Shown here piece after piece: positions 20,302-40,181 of a DNA stretch of 64,000 nucleotides. Under the pieces are notes generated by a model. It searched no databases. It was not told the DNA's origin and saw nothing but the letters and a program-made list of their open reading frames with translations. The DNA lies in the NCBI RefSeq assembly GCF_003940805.1, contig NZ_CP034328.1, positions 434,001 to 498,000 of the forward strand, written 5' to 3'. Both the position numbers and the translations under genes were made by a program. Each line of letters opens with the position of its first letter. Within the stretch, counting starts at the first letter, position 1. This DNA comes from Tabrizicola piscis. Its GTDB lineage: Bacteria; Pseudomonadota; Alphaproteobacteria; Rhodobacterales; Rhodobacteraceae.

Positions 20302-20982
20302 ATGGATTTCATGAACCTTCTCCGCTCGGCGGAACAGCTGCTTTACGAGGTCGTGTCCTGGCTCGTTTTCTACCCCCTGACCTTCTGGCGCTGCATCATG
20401 CGCCCGCTTGCCATGATCGCCTACGCCGAGAAGGAGCTGACCCGCCCGCCTGAAGATCAATTCGCCAACAACCTTAGCCCGCCGATTTTTCTATTCCTGA
20501 CACTGATGCTTGCGCATACGGTCCAGACCAGCGTGTTCCACAATGCCGCGGTCTTCGAAGGTGTGCTGGCGGATCAGCGCAATCTACTGATCCTGCGCGC
20601 TGTCGCCTTCAGCCTCTTCCCGCTTTTTCTGGGGTTGCAGCACGTTCGGCTGTCCGAACAAACCCTAAGCCGCAAGACTTTACGACCGATGTTCTATGCC
20701 CAATGCTATGTCACTGTGCCGTTCGTGCTTGCGGCGGACGTCGCAATCATGTTGGGAAATGCCAAGTTTTCGTGGGCAGAACCTGTAGCGGCAGCCGTGT
20801 TTCTGGTCGGGCTGATCTGGTACGCCACTGCACTTACACGCGGCTTCAAGGTTCATCGCAATACGACGACGGTAAAGGCGATCGGTCAGACGATCCTGGC
20901 CATCCTCGTCGGCGCGGTATGCTTCATCGGAACTTTCCTGTTGTCCCTGCTCAGCGGGTCGGTGACAACAGTAGCCAGTTGA
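20302..20982 (+). CDS. Polytopic membrane protein of unknown function
   Basis: A 226-residue protein with about five hydrophobic helices: VVSWLVFYPLTFWRCIM, IFLFLTLMLAHTVQTSVF, LRAVAFSLFPLFLGL, VAAAVFLVGLIWYATAL, and a C-terminal ILAILVGAVCFIGTFLLSL. ATG 20302 follows AAAGGCGG; the frame extends upstream without good content. The layout recalls Yip1/DUF1282-like small integral membrane proteins, but I cannot assign it. It stands alone, convergent with the CPBP protein gene. Confidence 0.75.
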   Translation: MDFMNLLRSAEQLLYEVVSWLVFYPLTFWRCIMRPLAMIAYAEKELTRPPEDQFANNLSPPIFLFLTLMLAHTVQTSVFHNAAVFEGVLADQRNLLILRAVAFSLFPLFLGLQHVRLSEQTLSRKTLRPMFYAQCYVTVPFVLAADVAIMLGNAKFSWAEPVAAAVFLVGLIWYATALTRGFKVHRNTTTVKAIGQTILAILVGAVCFIGTFLLSLLSGSVTTVAS

Positions 20983-21192
20983 AGTTGGCTCAGGGCGGAT
21001 CCATCGCAAGCATCCCGGTCGCATCATCGGGGGCACTATAGCCGTTGTCCGGTACGTGCCGACTAAGGCGTCAGTAGATGCAATGACCACTCAGGCCGAT
21101 CACCGCACCAAGGAGGACCACCCCGCCAAGAAGTCGGGGCGATGCCGCCCAAGGTCCGAGGCGGAGTCAGGCGAACGGGCCGTGACTGATCC

Positions 21193-21996
21193 TCAGCTCT
21201 CCGTGTCGATCGGGGCATGGCCGAGAGCGAAGGCAAACAGGAACCCGGTCCAGTCGTTCAGGATATGCGCGCCGGACGAAACCCAGAGATTTCGCGTAGC
21301 AATGAAGGCAAGGGTCAGGAAAATCCTGGCTGATCCAATCCCGATCAGTGCCTGGCCAAAGTTCCAGTCATAGGTCGGCAAATGCGCCGCACCGAAGATC
21401 AGTGCCGAAATCACCAAAGCAATCGCGATCCCGGTGCGGCGCGACAGACCGAGACGCGTGATGCACAGCCACAGGACCGCAAGGAACGGCAGTATGCCGA
21501 ACAATTCTTCTCCGATCAGTTGCGGAATGGTCGGGATCAGGCGCCCGGCAAGCTCCAGGGCCGTCATCTCGCCGACCTGCAATGACACCGGATTGTCGCT
21601 GAAACTGACGAATTGCTTGAGGATAAGCGCCACCGCCATGGAGCCCGCAAGCGTCAGCACAGCGAAAAGCACCATCTGCCCGACCTGACGAAACCCCACC
21701 GGACGGAAAAGGGCGGCCCAGTGCGGGCCCGCCACCCACCGCAGTGCCAAAAGGGGTATGCCCAGGAACAAAAGCGCCGGGACAAGATCAAGTGGGAAGG
21801 TTCCCAAAGGGATCAGGACCAAGCCAGCAAATCCCAGCGCCAAAGCGGCCATCAGGATCAGCCATTGCCTTGCGCCCAGTAAAGTGGGCTCACCAGCATA
21901 GTATGGATAATCGGGGGTCTCGGTCACGATAGGCCAGCCTTTCGGGAAGGACGCAAGGGCGGCCGCGCCCCTGCGAAGACGATCAATGATAAGCAT
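21193..21996 (-). CDS. CPBP-family intramembrane metalloprotease
   Basis: Up to 267 residues with six or more hydrophobic segments. The CPBP (CAAX protease/Abi) motifs are present: Glu pair in LIGEELFGILPFLAV, FGAAHLPTYDW, and SGAHILNDWTG, giving the Glu-Glu, His and His/Asn active-site set within the membrane. The family includes prenyl-protein endopeptidases and bacteriocin-immunity or regulatory proteases; the substrate is unknown. ATG 21996 overlaps the end of a small upstream frame. A GTG at 21927, giving VTETPDYPYYAGEP, is an attractive alternative start because it removes a basic non-conserved leader. Confidence 0.82.
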   Translation of the reverse strand: MLIIDRLRRGAAALASFPKGWPIVTETPDYPYYAGEPTLLGARQWLILMAALALGFAGLVLIPLGTFPLDLVPALLFLGIPLLALRWVAGPHWAALFRPVGFRQVGQMVLFAVLTLAGSMAVALILKQFVSFSDNPVSLQVGEMTALELAGRLIPTIPQLIGEELFGILPFLAVLWLCITRLGLSRRTGIAIALVISALIFGAAHLPTYDWNFGQALIGIGSARIFLTLAFIATRNLWVSSGAHILNDWTGFLFAFALGHAPIDTES

Positions 21997-22234
21997 AGAG
22001 CGCTTTCACTGTGCCGCTGTTGTCCGTCTGGCAGATGGTCATGTTTTGCCCGTTGTGCGTCAAGAACATCTGGACACCCAACCCGTCGCGCAGGAGCGCT
22101 GCGCTGACCACTTCGATGAAGGTCGGAGCCGTCGCCTCACGGAAGGCAATCGCCGTTCTCACGTCTTCCGGAAATCGGATCGGGTTGACACTTTCACCAG
22201 GGGAACTGGCGGAGAAAACGCCATTGGAATCCAA
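21983..22234 (-). pseudogene. Small frame, probably a gene remnant cut by a dispersed repeat
   Basis: An 83-codon frame that opens only at a TTG inside dispersed repeat copy A. Its later part (from about residue 24, VRTAIAFREATAPTFIEV, to the end) has normal coding composition and overlaps the CPBP start by 14 nt. No good ribosome site is seen. It looks like the 3' end of a gene whose front was replaced by the repeat; a genuine short gene cannot be excluded. Confidence 0.35.
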
Positions 22235-22249
22235 CCTTTTTCCGCCACC
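22176..22249 (+). repeat. Dispersed repeat copy A
   Basis: A degenerate element of about 70 bp. It shares CGGATCGG, then TTCnCCAGGG, nACTGGCGGAG, AACGCCAnTGGA and TCCAACCTT with the copies at 29502-29571 and 38544-38613. All three copies read in the same direction. Confidence 0.7.
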
Positions 22250-22439
22250 TTGGCCGATCTACAGTGAGTGCGCGAATGGATTGAGCCTCACCCCAAGGCG
22301 GCTGATTGCCGGGCCGGTCCGGACGTGGTCGATGGGGAAGCCTTTGGGCAAACTGAGGCGGTTTACCTTCAAGCCGAAATCCACTTGCTGCGCCCTTGCG
22401 CGCGTTTGGATTTCTGAAGGTCAATCAATCGATTTTCTG

Positions 22440-22676
22440 CTAAGTGCGCCGCACCGAGTTACCGCCAGCGATGATCTTGTTGATCAAAGCAGCCACCTCG
22501 GCATGGGGATGGGATGCGTCTGACGCTTCCGGCGCATTCGCGTGGGAATCGGCAGCATCGCGAAGAAGTCCCATGATCTCACCCTCGGGCAGGATATCGT
22601 GGTCATTCAGGGCCAGCAGCAAAGCCTCACAGATCGTGAGGGCGGCCAGTCCGGCAACATTTGCAGAGGGGTTCAT
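22440..22676 (-). CDS. Small conserved hypothetical protein
   Basis: A 78-residue protein from ATG 22676, preceded by GAAGGA. The N-terminal half is a hydrophobic-acidic helix pair (AGLAALTICEALLLALNDHDILPEGEI); the remainder contains HPHAEVAALINKII. The composition and the MNPSANVAGLAAL start resemble a small protein family I have seen in Rhodobacterales genomes, without known function. No signal peptide or metal motif is visible. It diverges from the Crp/Fnr regulator gene. Confidence 0.6.
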   Translation of the reverse strand: MNPSANVAGLAALTICEALLLALNDHDILPEGEIMGLLRDAADSHANAPEASDASHPHAEVAALINKIIAGGNSVRRT

Positions 22677-22864
22677 ACGCGTTCCTTCTTGAGGCTATGC
22701 ACGCGAGAAATTCCCGCAAAGCTGCTACGCCGCCTCGCATGAAGAATATCAGAAAATTTCACGTCGTTCCTGATATGGGTCAGCATGGTTGAGCGTATTC
22801 ACGATAGGCTTTGTTTTTCCAACCGTAGATTCGGCCGGCTGAGTAAGCCCTATGAAAGGCGCTC

Positions 22865-23596
22865 ATGAAAACACACGACAGCCCTCTGGCCCGCAAGCTG
22901 GGTGCGTTTGTGGCGTTATCCAACAGTGATCTTGGCGTTCTGTCCGACCTCTTCCGCAGACGTCGCCGGTTTGTCCCGCGGAAGGACATGATCTTCGAAG
23001 GGCAAACGAACCAATCTGCTTATGTGATGGCCACGGGCTGGGCCTGTTCCTATAAGTTGCTGAAGACGGGCGAGCGTCAGATCGTTGATTTTCAGATACC
23101 TGGCGACTTTCTTGGATTGCGGTCAGTGCTGTTCCGGACATCCGATCACAACATACAGCCCATAACCCGGGTGGATGCTTCCGAATTGACGGCGAGCGAT
23201 TTGCTAAGTGCTTTCCAGCGCACCCCGAGGCTGGCCACAGCTGTATTGTGGGCCGCATCGCGCGACGAGGCGATGGTCGTTGAGCACCTGGTCGGCCTGG
23301 GGCGTCGTGACGCGATCGAGCGGATGGCCCATTTCCTGCTCGAACTCTACGCACGCCTGCGCCTTGTGGGACTAGCGGACCGTTTGGACTATGACTGCCC
23401 GCTTTCGCAGTACATGCTGGCCGACGCCCTGGGGCTAAGTGCGGTCCACGTCAACCGGGTTCTGCGGCAACTGCGCGACGAGGGGCTTTGCACCTTCAAG
23501 AATGGCCGCGTGGTGTTTGACAACTACGATGGGCTGGTCGATCTGGCGGGTTTCGACCGCGCCTATCTCGACCATGAAGGCCCCCTGCTGGCATAG
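22865..23596 (+). CDS. Crp/Fnr family transcriptional regulator
   Basis: A 243-residue regulator. The N-terminal cyclic-nucleotide-type barrel (about residues 15-125) includes FVPRKDMIFEGQTNQSAYVM and RQIVDFQIPGDFLGLRSVLF. The C-terminal winged helix has the recognition segment LADALGLSAVHVNRVLRQL followed by the wing. The Cys cluster of FNR oxygen sensors is absent, so it is not an Fe-S FNR. Many Rhodobacterales carry such orphan regulators linked to stress or light responses. ATG 22865 has AAAGG upstream. Targets and ligand are unknown. Confidence 0.9.
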   Translation: MKTHDSPLARKLGAFVALSNSDLGVLSDLFRRRRRFVPRKDMIFEGQTNQSAYVMATGWACSYKLLKTGERQIVDFQIPGDFLGLRSVLFRTSDHNIQPITRVDASELTASDLLSAFQRTPRLATAVLWAASRDEAMVVEHLVGLGRRDAIERMAHFLLELYARLRLVGLADRLDYDCPLSQYMLADALGLSAVHVNRVLRQLRDEGLCTFKNGRVVFDNYDGLVDLAGFDRAYLDHEGPLLA

Positions 23597-23872
23597 CGCC
23601 TCTCGATACTGCCCCAAACGCGAAAATGGTGAGGGCCGGAGGGTCCACCAAAAGGATGGCCGGTGACAGCCAGGACTCGTCCAGCCCTCACAGAACTCAC
23701 TACTTCAATCGCGCATACTGATTGCACGCGATGCGAGTGTCTTGCACGGGCACAACTTCGCATCACTGATCTATGTTAGGGTCACTGCTTGTTTGCGAAA
23801 GACATCTGATCGAATGGGAGGAAGCCAATTGGATGAAGGCTGCGCCTAAAGCTTGGACAAGGTGTTGGACTG

Positions 23873-23898
23873 GGAACCGCGCCGTTGCCTTCGGAGTT
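23873..23898 (+). promoter_or_regulatory. Variant EcfG-type promoter
   Basis: GGAAC (23873-23877), 17-nt spacer, AGTT (23895-23898). The first base of the -10 element deviates from CGTT. The distance to ATG 23926 (about 28 nt) equals that seen for the clear EcfG promoters in this window. Confidence 0.45.
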
Positions 23899-23925
23899 TG
23901 CGTCCTGAACAGATGCGAGGACCAA

Positions 23926-24270
23926 ATGCGTTTCCTGATCGCTCCACTTCTGGCAACAGCATTCGTGCTTCCTGTTTCGGCCCAAGAATGCGGGTCCATC
24001 GTCAAGTCAGTGTGCATCGCCTCCGCCACTGAAGGACCACAGGTGCGCAAGGTCTTGACGCCGGAGCCAAGTGTCCAAGCATATGCCATTGGTGACCGCT
24101 TCCCGATAGAAAGCCGCTCATTGTTGATGGACCCGATGCGGTACAACCTGAAGCCCATCGATGGAAACTGGTTATACTATGCGATGAACGGCGTGGTTTA
24201 CCGCGTTGAGACACCGACGGGCGAGGTTCTGGAGGTAATCCGTACACGCCGGGTTTCCCATCTGAGGTAA
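23926..24270 (+). CDS. Small exported protein, RcnB-like
   Basis: A 114-residue protein with a signal peptide (MRFLIAPLLATAFVLPVSAQ). The mature part has GDRFPIESRSLLMDPMRYNL and GNWLYYAMNGVVYRVETPTGEV, which resembles the RcnB-type periplasmic domain (GD-P... G-WY.. G.VYRVD....V). RcnB acts with nickel/cobalt efflux in enterobacteria, but in alphaproteobacteria such proteins are mostly uncharacterised. ATG 23926 has GAGGA upstream; an earlier in-frame ATG at 23773 lacks a signal peptide directly behind it. A near-consensus stress promoter precedes it. Confidence 0.65.
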   Translation: MRFLIAPLLATAFVLPVSAQECGSIVKSVCIASATEGPQVRKVLTPEPSVQAYAIGDRFPIESRSLLMDPMRYNLKPIDGNWLYYAMNGVVYRVETPTGEVLEVIRTRRVSHLR

Positions 24271-24396
24271 GCCGGGGCAAACCATTTGGTCGTGGCGCAA
24301 TAGCTGCAAAATCCGCCTGTGCCACTGATTTCAAATTCGCGCTTGCGTGACGTCGAGGTAGCTGCACCGCGCATTGCTACATCGACGAGACGACTG

Positions 24397-24421
24397 GGAA
24401 CTGCTAGCCGCTTGTAGCGTT
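24397..24421 (+). promoter_or_regulatory. EcfG-type promoter of the FAD/NAD(P)-binding protein gene
   Basis: GGAAC (24397-24401), 16-nt spacer, CGTT (24418-24421), 30 nt before GTG 24451. It is a full consensus match. Confidence 0.75.
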
Positions 24422-24450
24422 CTATCTTCGACATACATGGAGGGTACCGC

Positions 24451-26025
24451 GTGGGCCGTATAGCGATTGTCGGTACTGGTCCAACAGGCATTTATGCTTT
24501 CCAAAGGCTACTGGAGGCGGCGCCCGAAGGAGAGATAACCCTGTTCGAAAAGGGCGAGAAGATCGGCCTCGGCATGCCCTATTCGCCGGAAGTCTCAAGC
24601 AAATCGATGCTGGCAAACATAGCCAGTATCGAGATCCCACCCATCACCACCACCTACCTTGACTGGCTTGAGGATCAGCCGGAATCCCTTTTGCGATCAT
24701 ACGGCGTTGATCCGGACGTCCTTGACGAACGGCACTTCACCCCGCGGCTTCTGTTGGGAGAGTACTTTCAGGACCAGCTTTTGGTGCTGGTTGATCAGGC
24801 TCTGGCCAGTGGAATGCAGGTGGAGATTCATGAGCAAACCGAGGTGGTTGATGTCACCGCCGAAGATGGCGCCCTGTTTGTGACCACCGCAGACGGATCA
24901 GTGGAAGGGCCCTTCGAACGGGTGATACTGGCAACTGGCCATGACTTCCCAGACGCGGACGAAGCGACCCGCAGCTATTTCCCAAGCCCTTGGTCTGGGC
25001 TGATTGACGCCGAGGTGCCTGCGGTTCGAGTGGGGGTTATGGGCACGTCGCTGAGTTCCATTGACGCGGCCATGGCCGTGGCCAATCAACATGGCCGGTT
25101 TCGGCGCAAGGGCGGTGCCCTGTCCTTTGAAACCGAGGCAAAGGGCCTGCATATCACGCTGATGTCATGGACGGGCGTGCTGCCCGAAGCTGACTTCTAT
25201 TGTCCACTTCCCTACGAACCCCTTCAAATCATGACCGAAGCTGCGGTGGCGGACTGCGCCGCGCAAGCCCGCCCGCTGGATGCGTTGTTCGAGTTGATGC
25301 GGGCCGAGATAACTCTTTCCGACCCGGGTTATGCCGAACGGATTGGCCTTGCAGGCCTGACGGCCGACACTTTCGCCGCCGCCTACTTTGCCGCGCGCGA
25401 GGTGCAGGACCCGTTCCGCTGGGCGCGGAAGAACCTGGAAGAGGTCGAACACAACAAGGCACACCGCATCACGGTGCCATGGCGCTATGCGCTCTTACGA
25501 ATGCACGAGACGGTTGAGGCGATTGTGCCCGATCTCAGCACCAGCGAGCGGCAACGGTTCGATGACGGGTTGAAAACCGTTTTCGTCGACAACTACGCCG
25601 CCGTCCCGTCCGAATCCATTCGCCGCCTCCTCGCCCTGCACGATGCCGGCGTCTTGTCGATCCTTGCTTTGGGAAAGGATTACGATCTGGACAGGCAGAC
25701 TGACCGGACGGTGATCCGAACTCAGTCCGAGACCCATGTTTTCGATGTGTTCATTGACGCGCGTGGCCAGAAGGCACTGACCAGCGCCGACCTGCCCTTC
25801 CCGTCCCTGCGCGATGCCTTGGCCAAAGCGGGGCAGGACATCCCTGAACGCGCGCAGGACTACAGTCTGACAGGAGTTCCCGGCTACGAAGGGCGTCTGG
25901 TGCTGGCCGCTATCCCATACCTGATGCACGACCGCCCGTTCGTCCAGGGCATCACCGTCAGCGCCGAAATCGGTGCTGAAATCGCCAAGGGCATGACCGC
26001 TGGCCGGGTGAGACGTCAGGCATAG
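24451..26025 (+). CDS. FAD/NAD(P)-binding protein (NAD_binding_9 type)
   Basis: A 524-residue flavoprotein-like enzyme. The N-terminal dinucleotide fold is IAIVGTGPTGIYAFQRLLE (GxGxxG at residues about 8-13), followed by ITLFEKGEKIGLGMPYSP, as in the NAD_binding_9/HpnW-like group. A second nucleotide motif VRVGVMGTSLSSIDAAMAVA starts near residue 191. FERVILATGH is the classical ATG motif of FAD/NAD(P) proteins. The substrate is unknown. GTG 24451 follows GGAGGG at 6 nt. The consensus EcfG promoter just upstream indicates stress-induced expression. It does not form an operon with its flanks; IS debris starts after its stop. Confidence 0.85.
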   Translation: MGRIAIVGTGPTGIYAFQRLLEAAPEGEITLFEKGEKIGLGMPYSPEVSSKSMLANIASIEIPPITTTYLDWLEDQPESLLRSYGVDPDVLDERHFTPRLLLGEYFQDQLLVLVDQALASGMQVEIHEQTEVVDVTAEDGALFVTTADGSVEGPFERVILATGHDFPDADEATRSYFPSPWSGLIDAEVPAVRVGVMGTSLSSIDAAMAVANQHGRFRRKGGALSFETEAKGLHITLMSWTGVLPEADFYCPLPYEPLQIMTEAAVADCAAQARPLDALFELMRAEITLSDPGYAERIGLAGLTADTFAAAYFAAREVQDPFRWARKNLEEVEHNKAHRITVPWRYALLRMHETVEAIVPDLSTSERQRFDDGLKTVFVDNYAAVPSESIRRLLALHDAGVLSILALGKDYDLDRQTDRTVIRTQSETHVFDVFIDARGQKALTSADLPFPSLRDALAKAGQDIPERAQDYSLTGVPGYEGRLVLAAIPYLMHDRPFVQGITVSAEIGAEIAKGMTAGRVRRQA

Positions 26026-26280
26026 GCCGGTTGAAGAGGACAGAAACCATTGTAGCAGGAACCGGATCATGGGGACCAAGCAAGCCACGGCCAGAAGCAT
26101 CCCACGCGGATCCGGCCGCGAAAGACAGCAACGCGGCTGAGAGAATTTGTCCAGCAATCATGGGGTTCCCGTGAAGAGGTTGCGGTTCATGAGTTAGCGC
26201 TCGATCACAAACCATCCTTGGCTCATGATCTGGTGGCCAATGTCGAGCCCCTCGCCCATTCTAGGCTTCGCGGCTTCTCC

Positions 26281-26366
26281 GCAGGCTGAGCGGGCACCGG
26301 AGTAGGGCATCACCGCGAAGTGGATGATCTCCGGGCTGGTCTTGAAGTTCTGGAAAGGGGAGCGTT
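26281..26366 (-). mobile_element. IS6-family transposase N-terminal remnant
   Basis: Minus-strand translation gives RSPFQNFKTSPEIIHFAVM followed by unrelated sequence. This matches the first helix block of IS6-family transposases (FRHFKTSPEIIRLAVMLYIRF) and is also found at 29401, 38824 and 48337. It is decayed and has no intact frame. The flanking 26026-26280 and 26367-26458 hold nothing else I can name. Confidence 0.6.
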
Positions 26367-26458
26367 AGCTTATTCCAGCAGGGTAGTGGACCGCCCTGCC
26401 GAGCAGTAACGCAAACACCGTTCACTTATATTGGGGCAGACTGGACACTCAAGTCCGA

Positions 26459-29227
26459 TCAAGTCGCGTTTCTTTTGCCATAGAGTTTCCTCAGCTTCTC
26501 CCGAACCACAGAAACGCCGATACCCATCCGCCTTCCTCCGCGTATCTGAGAGGCACGCATAGCGGCCAGCAGTTCAACGTCATTGAGCCCATCAACCGCA
26601 TCATAGGCTGGCGAACCGGCATGTGATACTGCCTCAGCCATTTCGTTCAAAAGGGTCGCAACGGCAATTTGTTCGTCAGTCAAACCGTAAGAAACAAATG
26701 GGTTCCTCCATCGGACCTTACCTACGGGAGTTTCCACGGACAGTTCAATCAGATCACCGCTTGCATCCTCAATACGCTGTGGTCGAAAGATTGACGCTTG
26801 GCCGCTCGTTACACCGGAGGCATCAGTCAATTGCCCTTCATCACCATCGACAATGAAGCTTGCAGGCTCAAGTACATTGCCCGCGTTGTCATCAGTCGTG
26901 AAGCGATGGACAAGTCCTGCACCACTTCTGTAGTGAAATAATGCTTCGTCGATGGGTGCCTGTACGCCTGTAACGTGATATCGCCGAGCCGACACCGAAA
27001 CTATCTCGTCCCAAATGTCGAGCGCACGACGAAGACGCGCGACCCCGTGATAGTCGTAGTTGGCCAGATTGTTCGTGGCGGACTTTACAATGCCAATACC
27101 ACCAAGCTCGACGACCTTGCGCTGTAGTCGAGCTTGCGGAAGGAAAGGAAACTGTTCGGCAAGGCCAACGGTCAACTGTGCCTTCTTCATCTGTTTAACA
27201 AGCTTGCGTCCCTTGAACAAACTCCAACAGATCGGTGTTTCCAAAAACAGTGGACAACCAAGATGGGCGAGTCGCGCGTAAGTCGCATCGTTGTCGGAAA
27301 CGGATACGACCAAAAAGTCGATCCTGCCTTCTTTCACAAGTGTTTCAGCATCCGGAAACACTGCACAACCCATCTTCGACGCAACCTGCTCGGCGGACAA
27401 CTGTCGGCGGGCCGCAACACCAACGACTTCGATGCGATCAGACACCGCCGCCAAAGCTGGTGCGTATACGCGCTGGATTCTATCCCCGGCACCCACCAGT
27501 CCGATGCGAATTTTGGGGCGTAGTGGTACCGATTCCGTTCGTCTGGCTGACATAGACGTGTTGAGATGTTCTGCCAGACGCAAGGCGAGGGCCACGATCA
27601 TCTGCGTTGGGTTCATGTGTCCCGGCGTAGAGAAGACCGAACCGCCGGCGACAAACAACCCCTCGACACCATGCACCTGACAGTTGGCGTCCACGACGCC
27701 GGTTGCAGGATCGTCGGACATCCGTGTCGTACACATTGGGTGCGCAAGATCGATCAGGTCTTCGCGCCAACTTTCGAAATCGTTCCATGAAGCGCCGTTG
27801 CCCGCTTCCATGCCTAAACGGGAAATCTCATTCGCAAGGATTTCACGGAACCGAGCAGCGGTACGATACTCAAGCTCGCTCAAACGCCAGTCAATCTCAG
27901 GAAGCGGCATACCGAAACGGTCTGTGCGATCGGACAACCGGATACGACTGTCGGGGTTGAGCAATTGTTCGACGCTACCCCCCATCACCGTCCTGTCCGG
28001 ATGGTTCAGTGCAGTACGTCCGAGCACAAAGCGATCAGCGACATTCTCACACAGTGCGACAGGATGCGCCAAACCTTGCACGATGCTGTTCGCTGCTTCC
28101 ACAAGGTTGCGATCGCCACGCAAGGATCGAACACCGGAGGCTATAGAAGCAAGCGGGTTGGTGCGCGACCCGAACTCGACAAGGTGCACTGAAGCGTTCA
28201 GCAAACCTTCCCGCCTTTGCAGCGCAGGAGAAAGGCGTAGGCCAAAGCTGTAGGACTGGACCGCCCCTGACTGTCTGTACAATCTTGTTGCAAACCGTCG
28301 CCTGAGAAGCCTTGCAGCCCCAGGCCCGAAAGAGCGGAACTCGGTAAATGTGTGGTCTGTGAGGTAGCGACCTACCTGGTCGTGGTCATTTCCGAGCCCA
28401 GCGGGCTTACTACTGCGCGAGGCAAGCAATAGCCGGGTATTGTCAATTCCACCGCAGGCAAGAACGACCCGGGATGCAGTCAATTTACGGATACGCCCAT
28501 CCGGACCTCGAACGAGCAGTCCGGAAACCATTTTACCCGTGTCTTCGGCAAGGACTTCGTGGACAGTTGCATGGGTGAATAGGAACACCGTTTCACTTTG
28601 ACGAATCCAACCAACATGCGCACGGCCGAAATCGACTGGGGTCTTTCGCCCTGAATGACGCAGGATTGCCAATTCATCTGCCGGAGAGTCCATGCTATTG
28701 GCAAAGTGCTCAGTTGAAGCCTGGCCATCCCGGACACTGAACTGCCAGACGACAGGGGACAGAAGGTCTGCATTCCAGGCCCGGCTATCAACGGGTTGAC
28801 GCAAATCCCGCAGTGCGTGAGTCACACTGAGATTTGGGGTGAGGCCAAGAAGATCGCCCGCACGGCGCACCTGACCTGCCATATCATCAATGTCAATTGG
28901 CCAACCCGATGTCGTAAGCCAGTCACGCCTTACGTAGTCGATAGCGTCAAACATCCCACAGCGGCCGGTCCAAATGGTGCTGGTTCCACCAACACATCGC
29001 CGCCGAACCGATTCTGGATTTGCCCGACGGTGGCCGACACTTACAATTTCATTTAATGCCTCAATATCCTTAGTTGGCTCAATCCCACCACTTTCCAGAA
29101 TGGCAATACGAAAGGGCGAAGCCCGAAGAGAGTGCGCTATTGTCAAACCTGCCGGACCCGAACCGACAATAATCAGATCGAAGTCTTGGAAAGACGTCTG
29201 ATAATCGGAAAACGATAGTACCGGCAT
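26459..29227 (-). CDS. GMC-type oxidoreductase fused to a Gfo/Idh/MocA-type dehydrogenase domain
   Basis: A 922-residue two-domain protein. Residues 1 to about 565 are a GMC-like flavoprotein: FAD motif DLIIVGSGPAGLTIAHSLR (about residues 17-35), VGGTSTIWTGRC, and the C-terminal HPMCTTRM (about 496) and GHMNPTQMIVALALRLAEHL (about 536) with the His/Asn active pair. Residues from about 572 form a Gfo/Idh/MocA fold, starting KIRIGLVGAGDRIQRVYAPAL, with LFLETPICWS in place of the usual EKP. Both halves are redox enzymes on sugars, polyols or alcohols. The frame extends 55 codons upstream into IS debris; ATG 29227 is directly before the domain. Codon use looks less GC-biased than in its neighbours, and IS6 remnants flank it on both sides, suggesting transfer. 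The substrate is unknown. Confidence 0.83.
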   Translation of the reverse strand: MPVLSFSDYQTSFQDFDLIIVGSGPAGLTIAHSLRASPFRIAILESGGIEPTKDIEALNEIVSVGHRRANPESVRRRCVGGTSTIWTGRCGMFDAIDYVRRDWLTTSGWPIDIDDMAGQVRRAGDLLGLTPNLSVTHALRDLRQPVDSRAWNADLLSPVVWQFSVRDGQASTEHFANSMDSPADELAILRHSGRKTPVDFGRAHVGWIRQSETVFLFTHATVHEVLAEDTGKMVSGLLVRGPDGRIRKLTASRVVLACGGIDNTRLLLASRSSKPAGLGNDHDQVGRYLTDHTFTEFRSFGPGAARLLRRRFATRLYRQSGAVQSYSFGLRLSPALQRREGLLNASVHLVEFGSRTNPLASIASGVRSLRGDRNLVEAANSIVQGLAHPVALCENVADRFVLGRTALNHPDRTVMGGSVEQLLNPDSRIRLSDRTDRFGMPLPEIDWRLSELEYRTAARFREILANEISRLGMEAGNGASWNDFESWREDLIDLAHPMCTTRMSDDPATGVVDANCQVHGVEGLFVAGGSVFSTPGHMNPTQMIVALALRLAEHLNTSMSARRTESVPLRPKIRIGLVGAGDRIQRVYAPALAAVSDRIEVVGVAARRQLSAEQVASKMGCAVFPDAETLVKEGRIDFLVVSVSDNDATYARLAHLGCPLFLETPICWSLFKGRKLVKQMKKAQLTVGLAEQFPFLPQARLQRKVVELGGIGIVKSATNNLANYDYHGVARLRRALDIWDEIVSVSARRYHVTGVQAPIDEALFHYRSGAGLVHRFTTDDNAGNVLEPASFIVDGDEGQLTDASGVTSGQASIFRPQRIEDASGDLIELSVETPVGKVRWRNPFVSYGLTDEQIAVATLLNEMAEAVSHAGSPAYDAVDGLNDVELLAAMRASQIRGGRRMGIGVSVVREKLRKLYGKRNAT

Positions 29228-29400
29228 GATCCCTATCGCAGCAAAGCGGTCAGATGACCCTAGTCCACCCGTTGGTACCTGTCCATGGTGTAGGGGTGAC
29301 GCTGATGGATGCTGTCGGACGAATGCGAACCCGTCTCCGCTACCGCTGCCCACCTGCAGATCAGGCAGCGAGAACGCCGCGTCACTCGGCAAAAGCGACG

Positions 29401-29480
29401 GCGCGGGTCTGCAGGTAGGTGGGCAACTGGACGTAGAGCATCACAGCCGGGCGGATGATCTTTGGGCTTGTCTTCAGGAG
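29401..29480 (-). mobile_element. IS6-family transposase N-terminal remnant
   Basis: Minus-strand translation contains KTSPKIIRPAVMLYVQLP, a mutated version of the IS6 N-terminal block. It is in the same orientation as the remnant at 26281-26366, with the GMC fusion gene between them. The rest of 29228-29642 consists of this fragment, repeat copy B and undefined sequence. Confidence 0.6.
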
Positions 29481-29501
29481 AGGAAGAGCTCCCGGGCGCA
29501 T

Positions 29502-29571
29502 CCGGATCGGGAGGTCACGTTCGCTAGGGAAATTGGCGGAGGAAACGCCACTGGAGTCCAACCTTCTCCAT
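29502..29571 (+). repeat. Dispersed repeat copy B
   Basis: The same element of about 70 bp as at 22176 and 38544, with the shared blocks CGGATCGG, GTTCGCTAGGG, TTGGCGGAGGAAACGCCACT and TCCAACCTTCTCCA. It directly adjoins the IS6 remnant. Confidence 0.72.
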
Positions 29572-29642
29572 CTGGGTCATTGCTTCCTCAATCCCAAGAG
29601 GCTGCTGCGCGCTGTGACCGTGCGTACGTTGCCCACGGCACG

Positions 29643-30938
29643 TCAGAACACAAAGAAATCCGCGTTTGTCAGTGCCAGACCGGTATCAAGAGTTGCGAAG
29701 TGCACTTTTGCAGCCGCACCAGTTCCATCGCGATCAAAGTACAACCGCCCGGTATCGCTCTCGTAGATGATCCGATCGCTGGTATCGGCAGCATTGCCTG
29801 AAGTGTTTCGCACGAAGGCCGATGCGGCGAGGGTCCCGGCTGAAAGGCCGCTGAAGATCGCGTCCTCTAGTTGGATCGTGTCGGCCACAACGTTGAAATC
29901 TGTGATCCTGTCAACATTGCTGGACCCAAGCGTCGTATTGAAGATGAAACTGTCAGCGCCGCCGCCACCAATCAGCGTATCGCTGCCGGTGCCCCCGTTC
30001 AGACTGTCGTTCCCAGCCGCACCGCTCAATGTGTCGTTGCCTGCGCCCGAGTTCATGCTGTTGCCGAGGGAGTTCCCCGTCAGGCGGTCATTGCCGCTCC
30101 CCGAAGAGATGTGCTCGACGTTCAGGATCGTGTCGGTACCGTGTCCGGTGCTCTGGGCAGTTGTGAGGCCAAGATTGACATTCGCAGCCACGGTACCGGT
30201 GAAGTAGGCACGGTCAGAGCCGTCACCACCGTCGATGTAATCGTTGCCTGTGCCGCCGGTCAGTTGGTCGTCGCCAAGGCCACCGATAAGTTGGTCGTTG
30301 TCTGCACCGCCGTTCAGGGTGTCGTTGCCAGAACCGCCGCGCAAGCTGTCGTTGCCGCCAAGGCCGTTGACACTGTCGTGGCCACCGAGGGCATCAATCA
30401 CATCAGCCCTTGCGGTCCCAGTCACCACGTCAGAAGCTTCGGTGACGGGAACGTCTGGCACGATGGTGCCGGGCCCGCCATTGTCGGCGCTCGACCGGGC
30501 GAAGTTCTGCGTCACCATCACCGCAGGCCAGTTTGAGCCGTTGGTGGCGAATTGGCCAACCTCGATACCGATGCCAATCTCGACAAAGTTCGGATTCAGG
30601 ATGTTTGCCCGATGGCCGGGGCTGTTCATTAGGCTGTTGTGCAGATTTATGACGTCATCCGAAATCCCCGCAGCCCCGCGTTGACTTTGCCAAGAGATGT
30701 TTTCGCCCAAGGTCCAATTGCCTGAAAAAACATAGCCTGCATCACCCATCCGTTCGCCGGCCGAGGAGCCGCCCGACCCGGTATGCGAAAAGACATCCGC
30801 CTGCAGCATCCAGCGGCTATGGGTCTCCGCCGAGGTGTTCAGCTTTGCGTTCAGCTTGAGCGCGGCGAGACCGTACGCGGCCCGCTCAGCATTGATGAGG
30901 GCCAGCATCTGAACTTCGTATTCATTGGCGACCGACAT
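29643..30938 (-). CDS. CAP-domain exoprotein with RTX repeats
   Basis: A 431-residue protein without an N-terminal signal. Residues about 5-150 are a CAP/SCP domain: MLALINAERAAYGLAAL, a conserved His in AETHSRWM, GENISWQ, and the CRISP-like SPGHRANILNPNFVEIGIGI. Glycine/Asp-rich nonapeptide repeats follow (about residues 180-330, GGSGNDTLNGG, GGTGNDYIDGGDGSD), which bind calcium. The end resembles the M10/serralysin C-terminal domain (ITDFNVVADTIQLED). That architecture implies type I secretion with calcium-driven folding outside the cell. CAP domains are associated with extracellular binding or proteolysis; the role here is unknown. ATG 30938 has AAAGGG upstream. No secretion genes are adjacent. 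Confidence 0.88.
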   Translation of the reverse strand: MSVANEYEVQMLALINAERAAYGLAALKLNAKLNTSAETHSRWMLQADVFSHTGSGGSSAGERMGDAGYVFSGNWTLGENISWQSQRGAAGISDDVINLHNSLMNSPGHRANILNPNFVEIGIGIEVGQFATNGSNWPAVMVTQNFARSSADNGGPGTIVPDVPVTEASDVVTGTARADVIDALGGHDSVNGLGGNDSLRGGSGNDTLNGGADNDQLIGGLGDDQLTGGTGNDYIDGGDGSDRAYFTGTVAANVNLGLTTAQSTGHGTDTILNVEHISSGSGNDRLTGNSLGNSMNSGAGNDTLSGAAGNDSLNGGTGSDTLIGGGGADSFIFNTTLGSSNVDRITDFNVVADTIQLEDAIFSGLSAGTLAASAFVRNTSGNAADTSDRIIYESDTGRLYFDRDGTGAAAKVHFATLDTGLALTNADFFVF

Positions 30939-31146
30939 TTTCTGACCCTTTCCGCACACATCGAACCTTGCCGCCCCACACCTTGCCAGCGCGGCTGCGA
31001 CGCCAAGACCCGTTTGAACGCAGGATTTGGGCCAATTGAAGGCTAGACACGGACCTACGGCCCGGCAACCTTAAATTGTGAGGCCTTCCCAACCGACACG
31101 CCCCAAGTGGCCCGAGGCACGCCGATCCCCGAGACGGTGACGCTGA

Positions 31147-31593
31147 ATGTTCCATTCCGCCTGGCCAGATGAGGTTCGGCCTCCCACATCGGAAGGGCCG
31201 CTCATGCGTTATCTCCTGACGGAGTATCTGCCGTTCGATATCGTGGCAGATCGCTCCGCTCGCCTCGAATTTGGACAAAGCTTGATCGGAGAAGTTGAAC
31301 GGTCGCGCGTGCCTGGACCGTTTGGCCTTTCCGTTCTTAGCGCCCTCCCCCGATTGAGGTGCCTCCCGCACTGATGGGGGAGAGATGTATACATCGCAGT
31401 AGACGAACAGGGGACGATTACCGATGTCATCGGGCGTCAACGCCCGGGGCATACTTCGTTCCAGAGCTGCGATCACCTGATCGAAACAGGCGAGATCGAT
31501 ATCAAACTCAACTATGCACCAGAATTTTTGGCGGGTTGGGCTAGGCTCTCATCCGGTGCCGTCCGGTTCCTTGATTGCATGAAAGCCGAGTGA
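31147..31593 (+). pseudogene. Interrupted reading frame with internal TGA
   Basis: One frame runs from 31147 to a TGA at 31591-31593 but is split by an in-frame TGA at 31372-31374. The second half lacks a start codon but reads like coding sequence (VYIAVDEQGTITDVIGRQR ... EIDIKLNYAPEFLAGWARL). The first half includes MRYLLTEYLPFDIVADRSAR. It is probably a gene disabled by a nonsense mutation. I do not recognise the family. Confidence 0.35.
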
Positions 31594-31688
31594 CCCGCGA
31601 TGGCATTGGCTCAAGAAGACGCGTCCCGTCTGTGTGGTTGATCAAAGCTAATGGCTTGTAGGGTGCATGCCCTGATTTCACCGCAGCA

Positions 31689-32654
31689 CTATAGTCTCAG
31701 CTCGGATTTCGACATAACCACGCAGAGAAGGTCGACCAACCAGGCCACCCCCGCATCCTGTAGCGCAGCCCTGGTCGTCACGATGACTACGTTGCTCGTA
31801 GAGACCTCGAACGGCAGCGGGGTTCCTACGAGTCCGAACCGTGCACCGTGGGTATCGACGAGGCTTTGTGGCAGCGAAACCACAAGGTCACTTTCCGCCG
31901 CAAGGAAGAGGGCGGACGAAAAGTTCGGCGCCGTCATCGCCACCCTACGCTCACGGCCAAGCTTTGCCAGCACACTGTCGGTCGCTGCCACGGGGTCGCC
32001 CCTGATCGAAACAACGAGGTGGCGCGCGAGGCAATAGGTATCGAGAGTCGGGTCCAAAGCATATGGATGGTCGGCGCGTGTAACGGCGACCAGCCGGTCC
32101 TCGGTCTCGGGGACTGGACGCAAGGCGAAGCGAGCGGGGCTGGTCACCCACGGCAGTATTGCCATGTCCAACTCACGCGTCTCCAACATTTCGAGCACGT
32201 GGTCCCAAGCGCCCTGCTCGGGCGAAGTGCGAAAGGACGGCACGATATGCAGCACGGACGTAGCGACGGTTGGCGCTTGTTCCGAAAGCGCTGCGGCAAA
32301 CGAGGGTCCGTGGACGCAGAGGAACGCATCGCCCGCCCCCACTCGAAACCGGCGCGTGGAGATGCTGGGGTCGAACGGCTCGGCTCCAGCCAGAACCTCG
32401 CGCACTCCAAGCAGGATTTCGGCAATTCTGGGCGCAAGATCCAGCGCGCGCTCGGTTGGTATGACGCCCCGCGTCGTGCGAAGAAACAAGGGGTCGTTCA
32501 TCAAGCGCCGCAAGCGGCCAAGGCCATGACTGACCGCCGACGGCGACAGGTTCAGCGCCGAAGCAGCGCGCCCGACATTGCCCTCGCGCAGGACGGTTTC
32601 GAAGAGCACGAGGAGGTTCAGGTCAGTACGAGAGAGATCAATCTGATTCAGCAT
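31689..32654 (-). CDS. LysR family transcriptional regulator
   Basis: A 321-residue LysR protein. The N-terminal winged HTH is clear: DLNLLVLFETVLREGNVGRAASALNLSPSAVSHGLGRLRRLMNDPLF. The effector-binding domain from about residue 90 has the two-lobe pattern with PSFRTSPEQ and DRLVAVTRADHPYAL. ATG 32654 is followed by the usual short leader before the HTH. It diverges from a small monooxygenase-like gene across about 108 bp, so it may control that gene and the DUF924 gene behind it. The NodD/LinR-like form of the HTH suggests an aromatic or other small ligand, which is only an inference. Confidence 0.92.
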   Translation of the reverse strand: MLNQIDLSRTDLNLLVLFETVLREGNVGRAASALNLSPSAVSHGLGRLRRLMNDPLFLRTTRGVIPTERALDLAPRIAEILLGVREVLAGAEPFDPSISTRRFRVGAGDAFLCVHGPSFAAALSEQAPTVATSVLHIVPSFRTSPEQGAWDHVLEMLETRELDMAILPWVTSPARFALRPVPETEDRLVAVTRADHPYALDPTLDTYCLARHLVVSIRGDPVAATDSVLAKLGRERRVAMTAPNFSSALFLAAESDLVVSLPQSLVDTHGARFGLVGTPLPFEVSTSNVVIVTTRAALQDAGVAWLVDLLCVVMSKSELRL

Positions 32655-32762
32655 ATTGCTGAAATCATACCACTGGCTTCATCAGCGTTAAGCGACAATA
32701 GGTCTGCCCGCACATCGCCTGAGCGGCTTCCTGCTTAGGCTAACTGGAAAGGAGAAGACAAC

Positions 32763-33032
32763 ATGGCGGTTCTGATGACGGCGGAAGGCTCAGGACAGAT
32801 ACTGGCAGGCTATAGCGATCTGTTCGATGTCGTATCGTCCGAATTACGAAGCGCGCAGGGCTTTCTGATGCACGCCTCGCACCCGGTCGACGGGGGTTGG
32901 CGGGTGCTAGAAATCTGGGACTCACGTCAAGATGCAGCTGCGGTCTTTGCCACAACAATTGCGCCCCATTTGCCCGAACGAGTCCGCCCAAAGCTGAACT
33001 TTACGCGCCTGCACGACGTCGTGCAGCCCTGA
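32763..33032 (+). CDS. Small antibiotic-biosynthesis-monooxygenase-like protein
   Basis: An 89-residue protein with the dimeric alpha/beta-barrel pattern: an N-terminal strand (MAVLMTAEG), a helix (YSDLFDVVSSELRSA), strands GFLMHASHPVDGGWRVLEIWDS, then the second helix and LNFTRLHDV. Such small ferredoxin-like proteins include ABM-type monooxygenases and many uncharacterised members. ATG 32763 follows AAAGGAG. It is the first gene downstream of the divergent LysR regulator. Catalytic function cannot be confirmed. Confidence 0.7.
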   Translation: MAVLMTAEGSGQILAGYSDLFDVVSSELRSAQGFLMHASHPVDGGWRVLEIWDSRQDAAAVFATTIAPHLPERVRPKLNFTRLHDVVQP

Positions 33033-33079
33033 CCACCACCGACGACTGCGGTCGCCCACTTTATCGACGAGGTTTGAAA

Positions 33080-33658
33080 TTGTTCTTCGACACCACTTTG
33101 ACGACGCGCCTTAAGGCGCACCTGTCTAATCCAAACGCGGTTGCCCAATTCTGGAAGCCGCTTGGTCACGCAGTCTGGTTCGGCAAGGATCCGGATTTCG
33201 ATCAGAAGTTTCGCGAGGCCTTTGTGGCCGAACATGCCGCCGCTGCACAGGGCGAACTGATGCCGTGGCTTGCCACCGCCGAAGGCGCACTGTCTCTGGT
33301 CATCCTACTCGATCAGTATCCGCGCAATGCGTTTCGGGGTACCGCACGCATGTACAAGACAGATGCACTTGCGCGGCTCGTTGCGGATACGGCGCTGAAC
33401 CTGGGCCATGACGGTAAAGTGCATGTTTCATTGCGCGGCTTCTTTTACCTTCCCTTCAGTCATTCTGAGCACATGGCGGATCAAGAACGGGCAGTCCATC
33501 TCTTCGCCGACCTTCCTGAACCGGCGCCGATGCATTCCCGCAGTCACCGCGAGATCGTTGCGCGTTTCGGCCGGTTCCCGCATCGGAACTCCTTACTTGA
33601 CCGCAAGACAACCCCGGAAGAAGAGGCCTGGCTTGCTGCTGGCGGCTTTGCGGGCTGA
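33080..33658 (+). CDS. DUF924 family protein
   Basis: About 192 residues matching DUF924 throughout: VAQFWKPLGHAVWFGKDPDFD, AEGALSLVILLDQYPRNAFRG, YLPFSHSEHMADQERAVHLF, and ARFGRFPHRNSLLDRKTTPEE. The family is an all-helical TPR-like fold of unknown function. The frame is open further upstream, overlapping the previous gene, without domain content. TTG 33080, with GACGAGG 7-8 nt before it, is my best start; TTG 33074 is an alternative. It is probably co-transcribed with the monooxygenase-like gene. Confidence 0.82.
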   Translation: MFFDTTLTTRLKAHLSNPNAVAQFWKPLGHAVWFGKDPDFDQKFREAFVAEHAAAAQGELMPWLATAEGALSLVILLDQYPRNAFRGTARMYKTDALARLVADTALNLGHDGKVHVSLRGFFYLPFSHSEHMADQERAVHLFADLPEPAPMHSRSHREIVARFGRFPHRNSLLDRKTTPEEEAWLAAGGFAG

Positions 33659-33782
33659 CGACAACAGGACCGAGATGCTTTTGGATCCGACGTCGGCAGG
33701 TCTCCTGCGCTTCGACAGCGATGAACAATTGAAATTGATGGCGGTGTTTCGGAAAGGCCGGCCAGACTTGAAAGGAAAGATT

Positions 33783-34193
33783 ATGCGTATCAGCGACTTC
33801 TGCTTCATCACGGCCGCCGCGGCGGCCCTGGTGGGCATGACCATGGGCATTGTGATGGGGATCAGCCAAGATTTCACCTTGGCACCCTCACACGCCCACC
33901 TCAATCTGTTGGGCTGGGTATCGATGGCAATCTACGGCCTGTACCATAGAGGCGTTGGTCGAACCTCTGGCTTTGGGGGTTGGATTCAGGCTGGCAGCGG
34001 CGCGCTTGGTGCAGCCTTCATGGCCGGCGGGCTGGGATTGTACCTCGGAAGCCATGATGAACGATTCGTACCCCTCGTGATTACTGGATCACTTCTTGCG
34101 GCTCTGTCGATGTTGTTGTTCCTTGCGCTCGTCCTTTTCGACATGCGCGACCGCCGTACATCCGCGTTCGGGATGGCCGCGCACTCAGGCTGA
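33783..34193 (+). CDS. Small membrane protein related to the heme-copper oxidase subunit I fold
   Basis: A 136-residue protein with four hydrophobic segments: FCFITAAAAALVGMTMGIVM, LNLLGWVSMAIYGLYHRGVG, GALGAAFMAGGLGLYLG and ITGSLLAALSMLLFLALVLF. The motif SHAHLNLLGWVSM resembles the His-bearing helix of cbb3-type oxidase subunit I, a known feature of a group of short uncharacterised membrane proteins. With so few helices it cannot be an oxidase. ATG 33783 follows AAGGAAAG. It is 124 nt behind the DUF924 gene and could belong to the same transcript. Confidence 0.72.
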   Translation: MRISDFCFITAAAAALVGMTMGIVMGISQDFTLAPSHAHLNLLGWVSMAIYGLYHRGVGRTSGFGGWIQAGSGALGAAFMAGGLGLYLGSHDERFVPLVITGSLLAALSMLLFLALVLFDMRDRRTSAFGMAAHSG

Positions 34194-34548
34194 TCCAACT
34201 TGCAGAACGACGCTGGTGCAAGATGCCTCTAGTCCCAGCGTCGGCCTTACATTGGCTGCCTCTCAGGATGGTCTGCTGACGCCCAAATCTATCGATTGCA
34301 TAGAGCGATCCTCAGGACCTCGGGGCTATGGGCGCGAAAGCCAAAGCGGCTGCCACCAAAACTGAAAGCATGATGGAAATCCCTGTGTTTCTCGCAACCC
34401 CAACATTCCGAGCAGTATACTGAATCGGAAATAGAATGATTCACCACATTTCGCTTCCCCTGCCCGATCCACAATCGGCAGCCCACAAACTTGCTTAGTT
34501 GACCGGCGGCATGGCTCTGCGTGCACCGTCACCGCCTTTCCCACGTAA
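34194..34548. other. Intergenic stretch without a supported gene
   Basis: About 355 bp after the small membrane protein. No frame on either strand has convincing content. The right end (34511-34548) may be the decayed front of the SRAP gene, since ATGGCTCTG...CCGTCACCGCC could correspond to the family's MRWG.PSPP block, but this is tentative. Confidence 0.35.
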
Positions 34549-34857
34549 CGCATTGAGCCAAACCCCGCTGGCGGCAACGCGTGGTTCGACCTGCCAGACG
34601 ACGTTCCGGCAGTCTTCGCTGGCATCCACGTGCCAGGTTGGACCTCGACACGAAAGTTGAAGGACGGCCCGACCACGGACGATCTGTTCGCTTTTCTGAC
34701 GACTGAACCAAACGCTGAAGCTGGTGCGGTTCATCCCAAGGCGATGCCGGTTATTCTCGTCGCCCCCGCAGACTGGAAAGTCTGGCTGATCGCGCCGTGG
34801 CCCGAAGCAGCATCGATGCAACAGCCGTTAGGCGACGGCGTTTTGAAAAAACGGTAG
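34549..34857 (+). pseudogene. SOS response-associated peptidase (SRAP/YedK-like) C-terminal remnant
   Basis: About 102 codons, opening right after a TAA and closing at 34857. The translation has EPNPAGGNAWFDL, VFAGIHVPGWTSTRKLKDG, then DDLFAFLTTEPNAEAGAVHP and KAMPVILVAPADW, the C-terminal half of the SRAP family that crosslinks to abasic sites in ssDNA. The N-terminal Cys2 catalytic region (MCGR/MCN..) is missing, so the protein cannot work. No start codon or ribosome site is evident. It is clear gene debris, next to a broken recombinase. Confidence 0.72.
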
Positions 34858-35196
34858 GATCGGCTGGAACCACACTGGGTCGCTGGTGTTTGGCTATACC
34901 TCAGGCGGTCGGCATGCCCTCTGCTGGCTGGCGCGGGCTGTTGCTACTCCAATGCCTGCGCGGGAAGGCGATGGCGCTCGCCTTCCCCCTTTGGTGACCC
35001 TGCAGAACTGAAGTCCGGATAACTTCAGCAGGCTGGTGTCGAAATCGCTAAACTCGTCATGGCAACCTGTGACTGGATCCCGCGTGCGAGCGAGGTGGCT
35101 GGAGGACTCGGTAACTTCTCCGAAGGTCGGGACTGGCGGTTAGCCGTTGGCGATTTCTTTCGATTCTTTCAAATTGGCTGTGCACATTGCCAAAGC
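34858..35196. other. Gap between two pseudogenes
   Basis: About 340 bp with only short frames. One of them (35059-35259 plus) overlaps the recombinase remnant in antisense and has no ribosome site. I see nothing that can be named. Confidence 0.35.
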
Positions 35197-35443
35197 TCAA
35201 GCCAAGCCTCGGCGGGTTCTTGTCCCTCGGTCAGTCAGTTCCGCCACCATGGCGCGTAGCGACTTGTGTCCGGCGGCTCTTGAATGAGGGGAGCAAGGTC
35301 CCCCCGAATTCCGCGGCATTCGCCGACACCGTCGCACGCAACAGTACACCGCCCTTCCCTGCCCGCTTAAGGACGGGTGCTTCATTTGGGTTCCCCAGCT
35401 TCAGTCCACGCGCCATGACCACTGCAAGGGCCTCTTTCGTGAT
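35197..35443 (-). pseudogene. Serine recombinase (resolvase) C-terminal remnant
   Basis: Minus-strand translation begins ITKEALAVVMARGLKLGNPNE, continues GGVLLRATVSANAAEF, then shifts frame to AAGHKSLRAMVAELTDRG. The same order is intact in the recombinase at 53470-54150 (KEALAVAKARGVKLGNPNG, ATVTANAAAF, AAGHTSLRAIAAELTSRG). The N-terminal catalytic domain is absent and at least one frameshift is present. Confidence 0.78.
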
Positions 35444-35584
35444 CCCAAGGCTGAAATATGACGTACGCCTTCCACCACCGCGCTTCGATTCTCACCTTAG
35501 TTCAGAGAACTGCGACTACAGGAAAAAAGTAGAGCGGCGCGCGAAACCAATGAAACACTTGTGCACCCGCTGATGTTTGACGGG

Positions 35585-35609
35585 GGAACCTCGGCCCATT
35601 GAACGCGTT
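35585..35609 (+). promoter_or_regulatory. EcfG-type promoter of the SLC13 permease gene
   Basis: GGAAC (35585-35589), 16-nt spacer, CGTT (35606-35609), 43 nt before ATG 35652. It is a full match to the general stress consensus. Confidence 0.7.
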
Positions 35610-35651
35610 GATTTGGCGGACTGTTTGCATCGTAAGCCCCGCGGAGGCCGC

Positions 35652-40156: not shown

Positions 40157-40181
40157 ATCACACTCCATAAGTGAGGGTATC

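Follow-up and report, generated by a model that had tools for sequence, protein, structure and literature searches.

What does a flavoprotein oxidoreductase do when a second, nicotinamide-type dehydrogenase domain is carried in the same polypeptide, and is such a gene a working one? This question is raised by a gene of Tabrizicola piscis that lies in the window analysed here, a stretch of 64,000 nucleotides (contig NZ_CP034328.1, positions 434,001 to 498,000) on the 4.19-Mb contig of a five-contig, 4.39-Mb genome. A preliminary description, made from the sequence alone, had reported a single frame of 922 residues that joins a GMC flavoprotein to a Gfo/Idh/MocA domain and had called the architecture non-standard, and both statements held. 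Pfam placed GMC_oxred_C (PF05199) at residues 425-548 with 82.3 bits against a cut-off of 24.6, GMC_oxred_N (PF00732) with 24.1 bits against 23, and GFO_IDH_MocA (PF01408) with 46.9 bits against 24; the motifs GSGPAG, HPMCTTRM, GHMNPTQ and GLVGAGDR are all present, and in the same Pfam search of the 922-residue protein no C-terminal-domain model matched the Gfo half. Neither a stop codon nor a frameshift occurs at the junction of the halves. These data demonstrate that a single gene encodes, in an intact frame, a GMC flavoprotein followed by a Gfo/Idh/MocA-type domain. No paper on the fusion or its setting was found in the open-access literature, as judged by titles and the openings of abstracts.

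Fused orthologues were found in five other genomes: Paracoccus sp. DMF-8, G913, G1082, G1050 and G149 (G1061, which gave the same match as DMF-8, was taken as the same strain). The DMF-8 protein, 932 residues long from a GTG start, is 69% identical over residues 1-914, and the fused frames of the others span 944 (G913), 947 (G1082), 973 (G1050) and 876 (G149) codons; the frame is intact in every orthologue except that of G149, which is broken by the contig end. Because fused frames occur in other genomes, the artefact considered in the preliminary description, a frameshift or assembly error near residue 565, was ruled out, and the domain search and hunt for fused homologues that it had proposed did uncover a family of single-frame fusions. 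A tblastn match in Skermanella (locus L036) runs past the GMC stop into an unrelated ParB gene and was excluded from the fusions. In DMF-8, open reading frames some 9 kb away from the fused gene (L009, 21168-22023) look, by eye, like the GMC C-terminal motif read on the other strand and may represent a second GMC fragment.

The gene was present in 1 of 32 genomes of its own genus (E 1e-20), and the fusion in 4 of the 125 genomes of the genus of G913. In a search of the family, the match extended into the Gfo half in 2 of 394 genomes (any match in 22; E 1e-25), and in a search of the class the fusion was recovered in 1 of 385, its own genome (any match in 30; E 1e-30); both counts may miss fusions, because scoring was confined to the two best candidates of each genome. 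A search of the order with a Gfo profile gave 2 of 292 genomes (E 1e-15), and that of the phylum gave the T. piscis genome alone among 349 (E 1e-18). No match was obtained in phage records, and a relative was encoded by none of the 25 stretches of viral contigs that fitted a pattern. The gene is rare and scattered, which fits horizontal gain, and it was probably acquired in this way.

Fusions of a second type were observed in Sinorhizobium. The domain is present in six plasmid records (S. fredii, including NGR234, and S. americanum), and in the four that were opened it is fused to a GMC protein in one frame of about 830-890 codons; at L037 (7911-10445), L106 and L107, all on megaplasmids, this frame consists of a GMC protein and a shortened Gfo-like domain. 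The C-terminal half of the S. fredii type had no Pfam Gfo match at E 0.1, and profile comparison related it to the ETP-type Gfo domain described below (probability 95%, E 2e-8, 172 columns). The L037 fusion lies downstream of DegT aminotransferase, cytidylyltransferase and Polysacc_synt_2 genes, with one gene without a Pfam match between. In a tree of GMC domains, the S. fredii-type fusion fell outside the clade of Paracoccaceae fusions; two independent Gfo fusions were nevertheless not established, and a single fusion origin is possible, because one common clade of all six rows was not rejected (approximately unbiased test, p-AU 0.34).

The ratio of nonsynonymous to synonymous substitution (dN/dS) was estimated for each half by the Nei-Gojobori method. 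Between the window and DMF-8 the GMC half gave 0.097 and the Gfo half 0.123, at dS of 1.8 and 2.5, where synonymous sites are near saturation; the corresponding values were 0.151 and 0.297 between G913 and G149, and 0.16-0.17 and 0.23 in the Sinorhizobium group at dS 0.04-0.58, and the pairs of the window with G913 and with G149 were saturated and gave no value. In five pairs with the window, identity was 34-62% in the Gfo half versus 45-74% in the GMC half. Both halves are under purifying selection, with the Gfo half held somewhat less tightly, and a pseudogene is disfavoured by the ratios. A decaying, non-functional insertion between copies of the insertion sequence IS6 would account for the IS6 remnants found on both sides of the gene and for its presence in 1 of 32 genomes of the genus; however, the frame is intact, dN/dS is about 0.1 and fused orthologues occur in other genera, which makes this explanation very improbable.

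The PDB relatives of the GMC half include the glucose dehydrogenase dependent on flavin adenine dinucleotide (FAD) (6a2u), fructose dehydrogenase (7w2j), aminoglycoside oxidase (7dve) and pyranose oxidases (such as 9fl2). The FAD motif, GMC_oxred_C and the catalytic His/Asn region are shared with them, but the window protein has about 360 additional C-terminal residues, and its catalytic His is preceded by Ala, the corresponding residue of glucose dehydrogenase being Asn. Eight fusions, six of the Paracoccaceae type and two of the Sinorhizobium type, were compared by alignment, and GxGxxG, His496 and Asn539 were retained in 8/8; the predicted active pair of the GMC half (His496, Asn539) is conserved. 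Two other GMC proteins (L087, 8882-11488; L088, 1012-4092) are extended at the N terminus by about 335 and 490 residues with no Pfam match at E 0.1, possibly another type of fusion.

The Gfo half departs from the textbook active site of its family. According to an excerpt of one study, the catalytic triad of Gfo enzymes consists of K (in EKP), D and H, Y can stand for H, and one active enzyme has a His at the Asp place (PMC7535918). The EKP lysine is replaced by Thr664, giving ETP, in all eight fusions, and two more Sinorhizobium rows likewise have ETP and YxYH, whereas each of the 15 other Gfo proteins of the T. piscis genome has a lysine at this place (12 EKP, 2 DKP and 1 QKP). At the DxxxH position, placed by sequence alignment only, His727 is found in 8/8, the residue at -4 is N, H, I, V, A, V, G and G, and Asp stands at -2 in 5/8. 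The motif Y724-x-Y726-H727 is kept in 8/8 and AEQF in the six Paracoccaceae-type fusions, and the glycine-rich loop is retained. Compared with 1zh8, 3q2k and inositol dehydrogenase 4hkt, with which it has in common the PF01408 Rossmann domain, the glycine loop, the ExP position and the second-motif His, the window half has ETP for EKP and is without Asp at the DxxxH position. The preliminary description had expected both active sites to be conserved and had regarded a loss of key residues in most homologues as counting against its view; conservation was found for the GMC half, and such a loss, strictly taken, for the Gfo half. The T. piscis genome also holds duplicated Gfo genes (C1:936728-937108 and C1:3520641-3521021) that have an identical translation over 260 residues and DKP in place of EKP.

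The missing lysine could mean that the Gfo half is a pseudoenzyme, that is, a binding, oligomerisation or regulatory module on an active GMC oxidase, and this is consistent with its faster divergence in the five window pairs and with its higher dN/dS in each computable pair; yet its dN/dS of 0.12-0.30 is well below 1, and all eight fusions retain ETP and YxYH in the region expected to form the substrate pocket, so that we consider a pseudoenzyme unlikely. The same set of ETP, EQ and YHG was found in two standalone Gfo proteins, one on plasmid P1 of Deinococcus gobiensis (L099, 7989-9140; 26% identity to the window half), where a LacI regulator, sugar-transport and GH125/GH38 genes lie alongside, and one on plasmid pPCS148 of Candidatus Megaera polyxenophila (L126, 8995-10029; 20% identity), which comes after three Gfo-like genes (translations judged by eye) that have the lysine (EKP, EKP and QKP). 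Because these motifs recur in two standalone proteins, the ETP-type proteins look like a Gfo subfamily rather than products of decay. Across the eight rows of alignment A5, the invariant residues are G, R, Y, P, LETP, EQ, P, G, G, YHG, R and three others. A Gfo half so altered might perform non-redox chemistry, such as elimination, isomerisation or cleavage, on a keto-sugar delivered by the GMC half: the redox triad is without its Lys and Asp, yet ETP and YxYH are invariant in 8/8 fusions and AEQF in the six of the Paracoccaceae type, the ETP/EQ/YHG set recurs in the two standalone proteins, and the Megaera protein is encoded near ordinary-looking Gfo-like genes and a gene annotated as xylose isomerase. 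This proposal is, however, somewhat unlikely, as the retained glycine loop for nucleotide binding suggests that a dinucleotide is still used, and we know of no chemistry for the ETP-type subfamily, which also counts against it.

What the second half might do with the product of the first was approached through the partners of related GMC proteins. The tree of 67 GMC domains, built by a quick method and supported by the Shimodaira-Hasegawa-like approximate likelihood ratio test (SH-aLRT) only, was drawn without duplicates, pieces of fewer than 350 matched residues (e.g., L072) and the repeat loci L001, L010, L100, L101, L104 and L105, and it predates the discovery of G1082 and G1050. In this tree, the four Gfo fusions available at that point group together (SH-aLRT 100) within a larger clade of 20 rows (99). 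In a clade of five of these rows the partner is an SDR of the NAD-epimerase family in 5/5, all in polysaccharide clusters; in Paracoccus liaowanqingii it is part of the GMC protein, and its gene adjoins or overlaps that of the GMC protein in Rhizobium binae, R. etli, R. tumorigenes and Neorhizobium galegae. The P. liaowanqingii protein (L035, 10001-12673; 890 residues), like that of T. piscis, carries a related GMC half together with another NAD(P)-type domain on a single chain, in its case within a polysaccharide cluster, but its second domain is an NAD-dependent epimerase/dehydratase (PF01370) and not Gfo. An 892-codon frame in G1016, from the genus of G913, matches in the GMC half only and resembles this fusion.

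Two other clades comprise 11 rows; a DegT-family gene stands beside the GMC gene in eight of them (L040, L073, L074, L091, L093, L095, L098 and L118), and polysaccharide genes lie near it in 8/11 (L040, L073, L074, L091, L095, L098, L118 and L076), while L093 adjoins nonribosomal peptide synthetase/polyketide synthase genes, L038 has galE-like genes only and L092 nothing. At 15 loci outside the 20-row clade, DegT was found at none, a glycosyltransferase or Wz-type match at six (some weak) and a weak SDR match at three; the S. fredii loci, which are also outside the clade, do carry a DegT gene. It should be noted that the loci were picked by score and not at random, and that of 56 plasmid records a part was opened. 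These partners bear on the suggestion of the preliminary description that one sugar or polyol undergoes two successive oxidations while the intermediate is kept bound. Both halves do come from dehydrogenase superfamilies that act on sugars, but the Gfo lysine is missing, the sister GMC proteins are mostly accompanied by potential consumers of a ketone, and a second oxidase was noticed next to none of them. We favour oxidation and subsequent processing of the ketone over this scheme, since an SDR or an aminotransferase accompanies most of the closest GMC relatives, and two-step oxidation now appears improbable.

We tentatively propose, as quite possibly correct, that the fused protein is a single-chain sugar-modifying enzyme in which oxidation is followed by processing of the ketone, most likely epimerisation. 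The GMC half, with FAD, would convert a single hydroxyl group of a sugar, whether free, nucleotide-linked or part of a glycan, into a ketone; the Gfo-type half would receive this ketone and most likely reduce it with NAD(P)H (reduced nicotinamide adenine dinucleotide or its phosphate) to the opposite configuration, the net result being epimerisation. The second step would proceed without the usual lysine, perhaps with the conserved Tyr or His of YxYH as acid. More generally, the partner of the GMC protein would set the fate of the keto-sugar: amination by DegT, reduction by an SDR or processing by an ETP-type Gfo. The SDR and Gfo pairings are most simply read as reduction to the epimer, but the missing lysine leaves room for non-redox chemistry or a pseudoenzyme. 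What the sequences show is the fusion, the catalytic residues of the GMC half, purifying selection in each half and the partners of the sister GMC proteins; the substrate, the transfer of the ketone, the direction of the second step and its cofactor are inferred.

The proposed logic has parallels in known systems. In gentamicin biosynthesis, as an excerpt of one report describes, the flavin-linked sugar dehydrogenase GenQ makes a carbonyl for the aminotransferase GenB1 (PMC4039129); the partner there is an unfused, pyridoxal phosphate-dependent aminotransferase, whereas in the window it is a fused Gfo half. The decaprenylphosphoryl-ribose 2'-epimerase DprE1/DprE2 oxidises its substrate to a keto-sugar and then reduces it to the epimer, according to an excerpt of another (PMC4366402). 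DprE1/DprE2 consists of two proteins and acts on a lipid-linked ribose, and its likeness to the window fusion is one of proposed logic only, an analogy; the fused protein does not belong to the DprE families, since Pfam puts its halves in GMC and Gfo. The cofactors of DprE1/DprE2 are FAD and NADH, and their folds differ from those of GMC and Gfo proteins.

Several observations weigh against epimerisation by the fused protein. Both the lysine and the aspartate of the Gfo triad are replaced in 8/8 fusions, and in the excerpted text of a study of scyllo-inositol dehydrogenase, changing K, D or H to alanine is stated to have abolished activity, as data not shown (PMC5969746). The end of beta-2 of the Rossmann fold differs among the fusions, and because it is not uniform, the use of NADP(H) is a guess. 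A separate Gfo gene next to a GMC gene was found at none of the loci examined by BLAST against a few Gfo references, a test by which distant Gfo genes could be missed; the role given to the Gfo half rests on analogy, because the partner in the sister clades is an SDR or DegT. A polysaccharide cluster is absent from the window, DMF-8 and G913 loci in the stretches compared by BLAST with 23 reference proteins of polysaccharide and related clusters. Finally, a fold prediction from a two-row alignment was discarded (mean predicted local distance difference test score 31.6), leaving no usable structure.

The same BLAST comparison, applied to the frames of the window, returned nothing beyond one weak SDR match (39320-40213). 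The only clear cluster among the Gfo fusions is that of G1050, in which glycosyltransferase, nucleotidyltransferase and galE-like genes lie 10-20 kb off, with GT61 on the other side; G1082 has a single GT61 gene, and G149 is a 4.4-kb contig. The gene beside the fused gene for an FAD-NAD(P)-binding protein has relatives of 51-54% identity in 5 of the 31 other genomes of the genus.

The preliminary description had also reported N-terminal remnants of IS6 transposases on both sides of the gene in the same orientation, and these were recovered, at E 0.002 by protein and at E 1e-6 and 3e-8 by DNA (96 bp and 41 bp). Of the six genomic matches to a 161-bp probe, four fall in the window, within 22 kb and all on the same strand. 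No IS6-type transposase domain over the Pfam cut-off was found in the genome, and no repeat of at least 25 bases pairing the two flanks was found in a scan of 20000-36000, which was not a specific search for IS6 terminal repeats. Because two remnants flank the gene within about 200 bp, it is plausible that IS6 once had a part in bringing it there. The preliminary description had likened the locus to an IS26-like pseudo-compound transposon; such a layout is compatible with these four short, same-strand remnants, and a composite transposon was not demonstrated. The features of the locus are listed in the table.

Table. Positions, within the window, of the fused gene, its halves and motifs, its neighbours and the IS6 remnants
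Feature	Position	Strand	Basis or remark
Fused GMC-Gfo gene	26459..29227, including stop	minus	922 residues, ATG to stop, one open frame
GMC flavoprotein half, residues 1-560	27548..29227	minus	Pfam GMC_oxred_C/N; PDB glucose/fructose dehydrogenases
His496	27740..27742	minus	Aligned with His of NNH-ITG motif of glucose dehydrogenase (6a2u); in 8/8 fusions
Asn539 of GHMNPT	27611..27613	minus	In 8/8 fusions
Gfo/Idh/MocA-type half, residues 571-922	26462..27517	minus	PF01408 at residues 573-688; alignments A3, A5
E663-T664-P665	27233..27241	minus	Canonical EKP with Lys replaced by Thr; alignment
Y724-D725-Y726-H727	27047..27058	minus	Conserved Y-x-Y-H; His present, Asp at -4 absent; alignment
FAD-NAD(P)-binding protein gene (PF13454), beside fused gene	24451-26025		Pfam
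CAP domain, then RTX calcium-binding repeats, neighbour on other side of fused gene	29643-30959	minus	Pfam
IS6 transposase N-terminal remnant, 3' side of gene	~26278..26373 (26212-26358 against Ruegeria conchae IS6 transposase)	minus	Protein and DNA match
IS6 transposase N-terminal remnant, 5' side of gene	29409..29498	minus	Matches Ruegeria conchae DNA annotated IS6 transposase
Further IS6 N-terminal remnants	38703-38982 and 48319-48411	minus	Against Ruegeria conchae IS6 transposase

In a broader reading, which is possible but somewhat more doubtful than the proposed activity, these proteins may constitute a Paracoccaceae family of single-chain flavin/nicotinamide sugar epimerases, each made of a GMC half and a lysine-less Gfo half, and may belong to a modular system of polysaccharide tailoring in which one GMC lineage works with three partners (SDR, DegT and ETP-type Gfo) and has become fused to two of them. 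If the Gfo half does reduce the ketone, the fusions would be single-polypeptide epimerases that hold a reactive keto-sugar inside one protein, and polysaccharide clusters would, if the modular scheme is true, switch the fate of an oxidised sugar, to epimer or to amine, by exchanging the partner of the GMC enzyme. The ETP subfamily also makes it testable what Gfo/Idh/MocA proteins do without their catalytic lysine.

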